From Maricaulis sp. (GTDB taxonomy: Bacteria; Pseudomonadota; Alphaproteobacteria; Caulobacterales; Maricaulaceae): DNA of 64,000 bases. The stretch is from contig NZ_JAEPOL010000008.1 of the NCBI RefSeq assembly GCF_017642925.1, forward strand, positions 62,001 to 126,000, written 5' to 3'. The notes under the pieces are model-generated. The model was not told the DNA's origin, did not search any database, and saw nothing but the letters and a program-made list of their open reading frames with translations. The position numbers and the translations under genes were made by a program. Position 1 is the first letter of the stretch. Each line of letters opens with the position of its first letter. Shown here piece by piece: positions 25,540 through 63,662 of the stretch.

Positions 25540-26848
25540 TCCTGCAGTCCGTGCAGCCGGGGGCGCACGCCCCTTCTCGCCCTATGAATTCATGCTGGCC
25601 TTCCGCTATCTGCGGGCCCGGCGGAAGCATGGCGGCGTGGCACTGATTGCCATGATCTCCTTTGGCGGGATCACCCTGGCCGTTCTCGGCCTGATCGCTG
25701 TCATGTCGATCATGAACGGTTTCCGGGCCGAGCTCTTCAGCCAGCTGCTCGGCTTTCAGCCGCATGTCTATGTCGATACACGTAATCTCGATGCCGAACG
25801 TGTCGATGCGCTGGTGCGCGAGCTTGAGGCGATGCCGGGCGTGGTCAGCGCCGATCCGGTGGTCCAGGGGCAGGTGCTGGCGTCCTCCGAGCGCTATCAG
25901 AGCGTCATCGTCGTGCTGGGCACCCAGCCCGAGGATGTGGCGGCGCTGGACGTGATCGCCAATCCGTCGCCGGATGGCCGCACGGGCCTTGTCGAAGGCA
26001 ATCTCGACGGGTTCGGTGAGGGCCATAATGGCGGCGACACGATCATCCTGGGCTCGGGGATTGCCCGGCGTCTTGCCGTCGGTGTCGGCGACCGCGTGAC
26101 CTTCACAACGGCCCGGGGCACGCCGACCGTGTTCGGCGCGCGACCCAACCAGAAAGCCTATTATGTCGGGGCCGTCCTGGCCGCCGGCGTGTCGACGATC
26201 GACGAGAGCGCGGCCTTCATGCCGCTGGACCAGGGACGGGTCTTCTTTGCCAAGGGCGAGGGGACCGACCAGATCCAGGTGCGGCTGACCAATCCGGACA
26301 TGGCCGCCAGCATGGTGGGAAGCATCGGTGCGCTCGCCGGTCCCGATGCGGCCGCCTACGACTACACCCAGCTCAATCCGGCCTTCTACAACGCGCTCGA
26401 ATTCGAGCGCACGGCGATGCGGCTCATCCTGTCGATCGTTGTCGCGATCGCCGCGATGAACATCATTTCCGGCCTAGTGATGCTGGTGAAGAACAAGGGG
26501 CGCGACATCGCCATCCTGCGCACGATGGGGGCGACACAGGCGTCCGTGATGCGGGTTTTCCTGATCGTCGGGGCCTCGATCGGCGTTCTGGGCACGCTGG
26601 CCGGCATCCTCCTGGGCATTCTTTTCGTGGTGAATATCGGCCCGATCCAGGATTTCATCACCTGGACCACGGGCACCAATCCCTGGGATCCGAGCGTCTA
26701 TCTCCTCTATCGCATTCCGGCGAAGCTGGACTGGGGCGAGGTGGCCTTCATCTCCATCTTCGGCTTCATCGTCTCGCTGCTGGTGACGCTGCCGCCGGCC
26801 TGGCGGGCCGCCCGTCTCGATCCCGTGGAGGCGCTGCGCTATGAGTGA
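25532..26848 (+). CDS. lolC: lipoprotein-releasing ABC transporter permease LolC/E
   Basis: Inner-membrane permease that, with LolD, releases outer-membrane lipoproteins to the periplasmic carrier LolA. The 438-aa product has a first membrane helix at about 36-58, a long periplasmic domain, and three C-terminal helices of the FtsX family with [14 protein letters not shown]. One LolC/E-type permease is encoded, as is usual in alphaproteobacteria. The ATG overlaps the end of proS by 8 nt, with AAAGGG upstream. Confidence 0.94.
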
Positions 26849-27536
26849 TCCCGTCCTCGATCTGCGCGACATCGTGCGCACCTATGTGACCGAAGCCGAC
26901 ACGCTGGAAGTGCTGCGCGGGGTCAGCCTGACGCTGATGCCCGGCGAGATTGTCGGCCTGGTCGGCCCCTCCGGTTCCGGCAAATCATCGCTTCTGCATG
27001 CAGCAGGGCTTCTGGAACGGCCCGATGGCGGGGAAGTGGTTGTCTGCGGTGCTGCGACAAGCGGCCTGTCCGACCGGCAACGCACGGCGATCCGCCGCCG
27101 GGATATCGGCTTTGTCTACCAGTTCCACCACCTGCTGCCCGAATTCGATGCGCGCGAGAATATCGTGCTGCCACAGCTGATCGGCGGTGTGCCGCGCAAG
27201 GCCGCCATCGCGCGGGCCGATGCCCTGCTCGAGCGGCTGGGCCTGTCCGACCGCGCCACCCATCAGCCTTCGCAATTATCCGGCGGTGAACAGCAGCGCG
27301 TGGCCATTGCCCGCGCGCTGGCCAATGCCCCGCATGTACTGCTGGCCGACGAGCCGACCGGCAATCTCGATCCGACGACCTCGGCGACCGTATTCGAGGC
27401 TTTCCGCGAGACGGTGCGCGATGCCGGGGCCGCCGCCCTGGTAGCGACCCATAATCACGAGCTGGCCGCGAAGATGGACCGCGTCGTGACGTTCGAGGAC
27501 GGGCACCTTGCGCCCTATAGCCCGGAAACGGCCTAG
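26841..27536 (+). CDS. lolD: lipoprotein-releasing ABC transporter ATP-binding protein LolD
   Basis: ATPase that drives the LolC/E permease. The 231-aa protein has Walker A GPSGSGKS at 42-49, the signature LSGGEQ at 146-151 and Walker B VLLADE at 166-171, followed by the D-loop GNLD. Its start overlaps the last 8 nt of lolC. The SOS-type promoter of the next gene begins 24 bp after the lolD stop. Confidence 0.96.
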
Positions 27537-27559: not shown

Positions 27560-27574
27560 GAACATTTGTGGAAC
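27560..27574. promoter_or_regulatory. LexA operator 1 upstream of small SOS gene
   Basis: GAAC-ATTTGTG-GAAC is a perfect match to the alphaproteobacterial LexA site (direct repeat GAAC-N7-GAAC, i.e. GTTC-N7-GTTC on the other strand). It lies just upstream of the -35 hexamer. Confidence 0.85.
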
Positions 27575-27581
27575 TTTCCGC

Positions 27582-27610
27582 TTGACGTCATGTCTGTGCC
27601 GAAATAGAAC
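27582..27610 (+). promoter_or_regulatory. SOS-type promoter of small membrane protein gene
   Basis: TTGACG at 27582-27587, a 17-bp spacer, TAGAAC at 27605-27610. The hexamers and spacing are the same as at the lexA promoter. The GAAC of the -10 is also the first half-site of LexA operator 2. Transcription would begin near 27617. Confidence 0.75.
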
Positions 27611-27621
27611 AAAACCGGAAC
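27607..27621. promoter_or_regulatory. LexA operator 2, over the -10 and start site
   Basis: GAAC-AAAACCG-GAAC, a second perfect LexA site, covering the -10 hexamer and the likely transcription start. Binding here would block RNA polymerase directly. Confidence 0.85.
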
Positions 27622-27640
27622 ATGAATTCGGGAGGTTGTC

Positions 27641-27736
27641 ATGCGCCGCGTTCTTCAAGATGTGTCTGCCGCTACGGCTGTACTGGGTTTCGCCTGGATG
27701 ATCGCCATGTGGGGAAGCGTGCTTGGCGCAGCCTGA
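27641..27736 (+). CDS. SOS-regulated 31-aa membrane peptide, SidA-like
   Basis: A 32-codon frame with a strong Shine-Dalgarno (GGGAGG at 27630-27635, 5 nt before ATG). The peptide has a short charged N-terminus (MRRVLQD) and a single unbroken hydrophobic stretch at about 9-31, rich in Ala, Trp and Met, fitting one inner-membrane helix. Two LexA operators bracket its promoter, so it should be strongly DNA-damage-induced. Caulobacter crescentus SidA is a 29-residue SOS-induced inner-membrane inhibitor of division acting on FtsW/FtsN, and I recall that it maps beside dnaE, as this gene does. Function as a division inhibitor is inferred from size, topology, regulation and place, not from alignment. 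Confidence 0.72.
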   Translation: MRRVLQDVSAATAVLGFAWMIAMWGSVLGAA

Positions 27737-27876
27737 GGCCGGCGCGAGGGCTGATGCCGCGCAAGCCGCAGGTCTTTCCGGTCGCGTTTACTGAGATCGG
27801 GCCCGCAAGCCTGATTTCGCCCGACGCGTTCCTGGCGTAGTTTGTTTGTTTCTCGACTCGCGGCGGCCGGTTCCGA

Positions 27877-27894
27877 CCCGGTTGCCGGGCTTTT
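27877..27894 (+). terminator. weak candidate terminator before dnaE
   Basis: CCCGG-TTG-CCGGG followed by CTTTT, 140 nt after the small SOS gene and about 50 nt before dnaE. The stem is short, so confidence is low. If real it would end the SOS transcript ahead of dnaE. Confidence 0.3.
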
Positions 27895-27946: not shown

Positions 27947-31390
<3,444 letters not shown>

Positions 31391-51412: not shown

Positions 51413-52108
51413 TCAGTGATACTTGCGGATCAGGCCGACCAGCAGACCCTGAACCTTGACCCGGTCGGGGCCGAAGATCCGGGTTTCGTATTCCGGATTG
51501 GCCGCTTCCAGGGCGATCGAGCCGCCCTTTTTGCGCAGGCGCTTCAGCGTGGCTTCCTCGTCATCGACCAGCGCCACGACGATATCGCCGGTATCGGCAG
51601 ATTCGCAGCGGCGGATCAGAACGGTGTCGCCGTCCAGAATACCGGCCTCGATCATCGAGTCGCCCTTGACCTCGAGCGCGAAATGCTCGCCGCCGCGGAT
51701 CATGTCCGCCGGGATGGGCAGGCGGTCGGTCTCGTGCTGGATCGCGGAGATCGGCACGCCAGCCGCGATGCGGCCAAGCACAGGGATTTCCACCGTGGTT
51801 TCGCGCTCGCTGTCTTCCGGCTTGTTGAAATTGGCACGCACGACATTGGGGCCAAGATCGCCCGACGGCACCGGCGCCTTTGCGCTGGCGGCGGATTCGG
51901 GGAGTTTGAGCACTTCCAGGGCGCGGGCCCGGTGCGGCAGGCGCCGGATGAAACCGCGCTCTTCCAGCGCTGTGATCAGCCGGTGCACGCCGGATTTCGA
52001 GGCCAGCTGCAGCGCCGCTTTCATCTCGTCGAAGGAGGGCGACACGCCCGTTTCCTTGATCCGCTTGTGGATGAAGAGCAGGAGTTCGTTCTGTTTCCGG
52101 GTCAGCAC
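51413..52108 (-). CDS. lexA: LexA repressor
   Basis: Repressor of the SOS regulon, inactivated by RecA-stimulated self-cleavage. The 231-aa product has an N-terminal winged helix ([15 protein letters not shown] to about residue 70), the cleavage site Ala116-Gly117 (RIAAGVP), catalytic Ser151 ([10 protein letters not shown]) and Lys189 (EATLKRL). The start is GTG at 52108, with GAGGG upstream. Its promoter has a LexA operator, so it is self-regulated. The same repressor should control the microgene at 27641-27736. Confidence 0.97.
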
Positions 52109-52176: not shown

Positions 52177-52191
52177 GTTCTACAAGTGTTC
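52177..52191. promoter_or_regulatory. LexA operator of lexA
   Basis: GTTC-TACAAGT-GTTC on the plus strand, a perfect alphaproteobacterial LexA site. One GTTC is the complement of the GAAC in the -10 hexamer. A degenerate second site (GAAC-N7-GAAT) lies at 52152-52166, closer to the gene. Confidence 0.88.

Positions 52192-61952: not shown

Positions 61953-63662
<1,710 letters not shown>

Follow-up and report, generated by a model that had tools for sequence, protein, structure and literature searches.

A predicted LexA-controlled membrane peptide encoded upstream of dnaE in Maricaulis, the probable SidA of its lineage

A 31-codon frame upstream of dnaE in Maricaulis sp. is confirmed as a real gene under purifying selection, and it is very probably the sidA of its lineage, encoding a LexA-controlled peptide that most likely holds off septation at FtsW/FtsI/FtsN. 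The locus combines LexA operators, a conserved frame under selection, a predicted helix, linkage to dnaE, and profile similarity to SidA. This is a kind of gene that is already known: PMC4211646 describes SidA as the main inhibitor of division in the SOS response of Caulobacter, a 29-aa inner-membrane peptide that interacts with FtsW. The stretch of DNA analysed, referred to here as the window, is 64,000 nt long and comprises positions 62,001 to 126,000 of the forward strand of NZ_JAEPOL010000008.1 (assembly GCF_017642925.1).

The 410-bp spacer between lolD and dnaE holds two LexA operators, a promoter, a ribosome-binding site and the 31-codon frame, all on the plus strand. Both operators—GAACATTTGTGGAAC at 27560..27574 and GAACAAAACCGGAAC at 27607..27621—are perfect GAAC-N7-GAAC sites, and the second overlaps the −10 of a TTGACG-N17-TAGAAC promoter (27582..27610, with TTGACG at 27582-27587 and TAGAAC at 27605-27610) read from the sequence. 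A GGGAGG ribosome-binding site, also read from the sequence, lies at 27630..27635, and relatives are likewise purine-rich ahead of the ATG. The frame itself (27641..27736, ATG at 27641, stop ending at 27736) encodes a predicted SidA-like single-helix membrane peptide of 31 aa, MRRVLQDVSAATAVLGFAWMIAMWGSVLGAA. All of these elements had been reported in a preliminary description of this DNA, and all are confirmed from the sequence. Upstream is lolD (26841..27536, plus strand), for which LolD is the best model at 248 bits, below the cut-off of 307.75; lolC/E is identified by a curated model. Downstream is dnaE (27947..31390, plus strand), encoding the DNA polymerase III alpha subunit and matching NF004226 at 1463 bits (cut-off 1002). 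In the interval from the peptide gene to dnaE, a possible weak terminator (27861..27889, plus strand; two overlapping hits against a shuffle mean of 1.0) is doubtful because its fold is no better than those of shuffles (z −0.56). The presumed regulator gene, lexA, lies at 51413..52108 on the minus strand (TIGR00498, 188.5 bits, cut-off 110.95), and a motif scan places a perfect LexA-type site ahead of it at 52177..52191 on the same strand, −86 relative to the lexA match. An additional GAAC-N7-GAAC within the dnaE coding sequence (30935-30949) is probably due to chance.

The number of operators within the window alone is unremarkable (four sites, against a mean of 1.49 in shuffles, 6 of 100 of which reach four), whereas the genome-wide count is striking, with 85 sites (41+44) against 32 (16+16) for the reversed pattern. 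The regulon was checked in 20 stretches around sites that were chosen, mostly as A-rich or paired, and so are not a random sample. GAAC-N7-GAAC precedes recA, ssb and uvrA (divergent), a gene for a UvrD/PcrA-type helicase, and lexA, and it is also found ahead of genes for a YifB-type ATPase and a PA0069-type radical SAM protein; most of these matches fall below curated cut-offs because only protein starts were scanned. Two frames beside LexA sites that we take to be ImuA and MmcB have no NCBIfam match, and several of the 20 sites have no obvious SOS gene adjoining. Candidate frames adjoining perfect LexA-type sites at two other loci of this genome, L277 and L264 (the latter with two sites in opposite orientation), presumably encode glyoxalase/VOC-type proteins. 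Each of the 17 lexA genes examined is preceded by a perfect site and, opposed to it, one with a single mismatch.

A perfect operator is present no more than 170 bp upstream of the frame in 70 of 88 genomes of the window's family, and a perfect or one-mismatch operator in all 88. Random 170-bp windows inside dnaE of Caulobacteraceae loci contain a perfect site in 0/400 cases and one with at most one mismatch in 20/400; for windows drawn from any part of the family's loci, with true sites counted, the corresponding background is 27/900 and 70/900. A second perfect site, 47-59 bp 5′ of the promoter-proximal one, is also seen in L002, L003, L005, L006, L009 and L010. A different arrangement is observed in 18 family loci (L012-L016, L018-L023, L025-L029, L031 and L032), where the perfect site is replaced by a pair of sites with one mismatch each (GAAC-N7-GAAA or GAAT), spaced by exactly 25 bp. 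TTGACn with a −10-like element at a spacing of 16-19 nt precedes 37 of the 88 frames; nine of the ten genomes of the window's genus have TTGACn with TAGAAC (seven with a 17-nt and two with an 18-nt spacer), and the TTGACG/TAGAAC element of the window recurs in L002-L007. A generic sigma-70 scan, whose rule requires T at the last −10 base, reported no promoter at the window locus.

The DnaE N-terminus was searched for in 99 family genomes and matched in 92, and 90 dnaE-upstream regions (30 + 60 loci) were read. In 88 of the 90, a frame of 30-34 aa with one hydrophobic stretch is found shortly before dnaE. Two genomes with a DnaE match, G017 and G022, are outside these 90 regions, and G022 has a family-profile match just upstream of its dnaE. 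One of the two loci that lack the frame, L055, has no perfect LexA site upstream of dnaE either. The other, L056 (genome G002), has a perfect LexA-type site some 51 nt ahead of where dnaE is inferred to start, and no peptide frame; the operator here has apparently survived the loss of the peptide. This is the sole locus of the 90 at which the site is kept and the frame lost, a pattern that the preliminary description had named as counting against a gene and that is not the rule in the family.

Among all ten genomes of the window's genus, pN/pS of the 31-codon frame is 0.22. The same codons read in the other frames give 1.18 and 3.86 (sense) and 0.91, 0.35 and 4.85 (antisense), the low value of 0.35, in antisense frame 1, probably being an effect of codon phase. 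Across rows from eight genera including the window's, picked by hand (four for g8, two for g9 and seven for g19), pN/pS ranges from 0.05 to 0.34. Purifying selection in relatives, which had been put forward as a check on the frame, is thus found. AlphaFold, run on the single sequence, predicts one helix spanning residues 2-30 (mean pLDDT 91.7, pTM 0.46), and a tryptophan at about position 24 is present in 79 of the 88 family peptides and absent from the C. vibrioides copy. No Pfam match was obtained for the four peptides tried, and the window peptide's only NCBIfam match is a twin-arginine signal at 14 bits (cut-off 16.7). An overlapping 72-codon frame (27622-27840) was rejected as it is not the conserved frame, and an RNA element was rejected after an Rfam search gave no match.

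The relationship to SidA was examined in a sample of 200 genomes of the order, 160 of them from outside the family; 50 of the latter were picked and 49 yielded dnaE. An automatic filter for length, hydrophobic stretch and ribosome site recognised a mini-frame upstream of dnaE in 17/17 genomes of family f3, 9/9 of f5, 4/12 of f4 and 0/11 of f2, and relaxed criteria yielded no further ones in f2 or f4. The mini-frames of f5 and f4 are LexA-linked. Locus L151 (G121) has a perfect LexA-type site at −119 of dnaE and no recognised membrane mini-frame. We take f3 to be the Caulobacteraceae because the DnaE of the f3 genome G148 matches mostly Caulobacter and Phenylobacterium among the best 80 of 193 named loci. 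In these best 80 of 193, a filter of the same type recognises a frame of 26-30 aa upstream of dnaE in 76 (exactly 29 aa in 67), with a LexA site that is perfect in 55 and has one mismatch in 21; the frame was not detected in L196, L216, L240 and L223, the last with a flank of just 68 nt. The sidA gene of C. vibrioides (L239, T5M6) has a one-mismatch site, GAAC-N7-GAAT (GAACGAAAGGGGAAT).

The curated SidA model, NF033228 (cut-off 35), is narrow. It scores the C. vibrioides copy (L239) at 72.4 bits and that of L130 at 59.7, and an f3 peptide from another genus in the same position (L134) at only 20.5 bits. It exceeds its cut-off in 25 of the 200 order genomes, all f3; in 14 control genomes it matches seven including C. 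vibrioides, one of them above the cut-off. The window peptide is unmatched, nothing in the window genome matches at E≤1, and the model also misses two more peptides and five further ones (two from the family, one from f4 and two from outside the order). In G112 a second match, below the cut-off at 28.5 bits, lies away from dnaE within a 132-codon open frame (G112:C3:315102-315185).

In the order sample, a profile built from 54 family peptides has matches at E≤3.2e-9 in 40/40 genomes of the family; the majority of these had contributed peptides to it, G246 and G251 being new. Outside the family it has no match below 0.0037 in the order sample, and several of the weak matches there (in G112, G109, G101 and G118) lie just upstream of dnaE on the same strand. 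Aligned with hhalign, the family and Caulobacteraceae profiles give 95.5% and 1.6e-8 with MAFFT columns. When the first sequence fixes the columns, the values are 39%, 5.3e-5 and a score of 26.45, and leaving out the window's genus gives a score of 25.5. The similarity exceeds that of composition, as none of 150 column permutations reached 26.45, although permuting the helix columns alone comes close (up to 23.1). The helices share composition, and this counts against a link to SidA by profile. A gapless alignment of the window peptide with that of C. vibrioides has 8/29 identical residues, including F17, W19 and M20.

The window gene thus shares with sidA a position directly upstream of dnaE, a length of about 29 aa with one predicted membrane helix, and a LexA-type operator at the promoter. 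Since the Caulobacteraceae frame at the dnaE-upstream position is SidA, the window gene is best read, from sequence and position, as a positional ortholog of SidA rather than an unrelated counterpart. The proposal of a SidA-type inhibitor in the preliminary description is supported in that a LexA-linked candidate membrane peptide lies directly upstream of dnaE across relatives; its qualification of the gene as a functional counterpart in a different lineage is too cautious, as the gene sits where sidA sits. The suggestion that divergence would defeat similarity searches holds for NF033228, which misses the peptide, and fails for the family profile, which aligns with the Caulobacteraceae peptides.

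When the start of dnaE is placed by alignment, the distance separating it from the stop codon of the peptide gene is −1 to 220 nt in the 88 family genomes (median 57), and 40 nt or less in 33 of them; the window's gap of 210 nt is the second longest. Many of these arrangements are operon-like, and co-induction of dnaE with the peptide is plausible. The fetched flank contains a LolD C-terminus in 54 of the 90 family loci, in 31 of 49 loci from elsewhere in the order and in 30 of the best 80 of 193 named loci. The constant neighbour is therefore dnaE rather than lolD, and the setting between lolD and dnaE proposed at the outset stands for its dnaE side only. Because the perfect site in L056 stands directly before dnaE with no frame between, dnaE itself may be SOS-controlled in that genome.

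The same role as that of Caulobacter SidA is assigned to the peptide because position and sequence agree; by analogy with Caulobacter we infer its induction, topology, FtsW binding and division block. DNA damage would activate RecA and lead to cleavage of LexA, which would leave both operators, including the one covering the −10, so that the 31-aa peptide would be made. Its arginine-bearing N-terminus is expected to remain in the cytoplasm while the single helix inserts in the inner membrane, where it would most likely touch FtsW within the FtsW/FtsI/FtsN complex and hold off septal wall synthesis until repair is complete.

In PMC4211646, SidA and DidA are proposed to keep FtsW/FtsI/FtsN inactive; FtsW A31K suppresses SidA and not DidA, and F145L and A246T bypass both. 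FtsW was compared in loci L250-L262, with that of the window genome at G000:C21:30575-31618. At position 31 (Caulobacter numbering) the window genome has V, and V, I, T or L is found in the eight family members compared; the residue is A in 4/4 f3 proteins compared, and one f5 genome has I. All eight family proteins compared retain F145 and A246. In a single f5 genome (G106, L262), FtsW naturally has L145 and T246, though a SidA-like frame precedes its dnaE. The valine at position 31 suggests either that the contact has shifted or that, in the window's lineage, FtsW is not the target.

An alternative is that the gene encodes an SOS membrane peptide with a target other than FtsW, such as another divisome or wall protein, or with a membrane action like that of TisB of E. 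coli. TisB is a 29-aa SOS membrane peptide and the toxin of a type I toxin-antitoxin pair. The loss of A31 from FtsW in the window's family and the identity of just 8/29 to the C. vibrioides peptide speak for this alternative, which we nevertheless consider improbable: the gene shares its position, length and profile similarity with sidA, and the residues of the helix appear more conserved over genera than membrane disruption would demand. A further alternative is a leader that tunes dnaE: translating the frame would couple dnaE to SOS transcription, and its product would be inert. The constancy of dnaE as neighbour, the short gaps in 33/88 genomes and the site before dnaE in L056 would suit such a leader, and co-induction of dnaE is compatible with a SidA. 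We regard the leader as very improbable, in that selection acts on the amino acids, the gap is variable (210 nt in the window), Rfam gave no match, and Caulobacter has SidA at the same position, where its loss and overproduction have division phenotypes (PMC4211646).

A chance frame next to a LexA site has practically no probability left. The frame is very short, with no Pfam match and a sub-cut-off twin-arginine match as its only NCBIfam match, as a chance frame might be; conservation of the frame and the site, codon-position bias and selection contradict it, and this explanation was rejected. Controls point the same way, the mini-frame test being positive at 0/24 other sites of the same genome, 0/19 lexA-locus sites and 31/1600 random positions.

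Among known systems, the window peptide and SidA (NF033228) have in common, besides length, single predicted helix, LexA-type site and place directly upstream of dnaE, an R/K then D/E ahead of the helix and F17-x-W19-M20 in the gapless alignment; the window differs in escaping the curated model, in having two operators and in its 210-nt gap to dnaE. YneA, SosA and ChiZ of Gram-positive bacteria are also SOS-induced small membrane division inhibitors. They are larger than the window peptide and have another sequence and other gene neighbours. AlphaFold 3 models put all three and SidA on FtsW, SidA on helix 7 in a low-confidence model and none with high confidence (PMC13396833). DidA of Caulobacter is likewise a small division inhibitor with a single helix, produced in response to DNA damage, but it is SOS-independent, 71 aa long and binds FtsN (PMC4211646), differing from the 31-aa window peptide with its LexA-type operators in length, control and presumed partner. 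SulA of E. coli is an SOS division inhibitor as well, and its target is FtsZ polymerisation (same source).

Relationships at greater distance are less direct. The f5 peptides do not align significantly with those of Caulobacteraceae (hhalign 1.8%, and 0.25% in another run), and a direct link between them was rejected; with the window's family they give 87.9%, falling to 14.4% with fixed columns, yet no permutation of 150 reached the score. Beyond the order, a class sample of one genome per family included 79 with a dnaE match, of which 40, mostly best matches, were picked and read up to 600 bp upstream of dnaE (180 bp in L308). A perfect site is present in eight of these 40 hand-picked families, plus-oriented in six, and a membrane mini-frame follows it in all six plus-oriented cases (five by the strict filter and L302, with a GTG start and 47 aa, by a looser one). 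Locus L321, also outside the order, has a mini-frame without a LexA site. Starting genomes included, the order of G263 has the frame in 3/3 genomes and a perfect site in three, and the order of G341 has the frame in 8/9 and a perfect site in seven; the order of G317 contains only that genome. The distant peptides have a common pattern of K/R, then D/E or N, then the helix, usually with Trp. Their candidacy as SidA-like genes rests on position, operator and this pattern, L312 and L335 being the weakest cases. We lean slightly towards a broader proposal, in which SidA would be an old alphaproteobacterial checkpoint gene fixed ahead of dnaE, with orthologs in several orders that are too short and divergent to be caught by the curated model, often in a single SOS transcript with dnaE, and with a peptide that has changed together with FtsW position 31.

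No report of SidA outside Caulobacter was found in the literature searched, the coverage of which is partial, so absence is not proven; with the same limit, it yielded nothing either on the breadth beyond Caulobacteraceae, the tie to dnaE or the gene's failure to match the curated model. SOS division inhibitors tend to be treated lineage by lineage, as SulA, YneA, SosA and SidA. If all of the short frames are sidA, a single dnaE-linked inhibitor has persisted through several families, probably also through orders, and the curated model fails to recognise it in many genomes; position and operator together can recover genes that the model loses. A shared SOS transcript, if real, would raise the polymerase and the division brake together. 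Natural SidA/FtsW pairs that differ at FtsW position 31 offer a direct way of mapping how a 30-residue helix blocks the septum, and if peptide and position 31 have changed together, they would form lineage-specific lock-and-key pairs.
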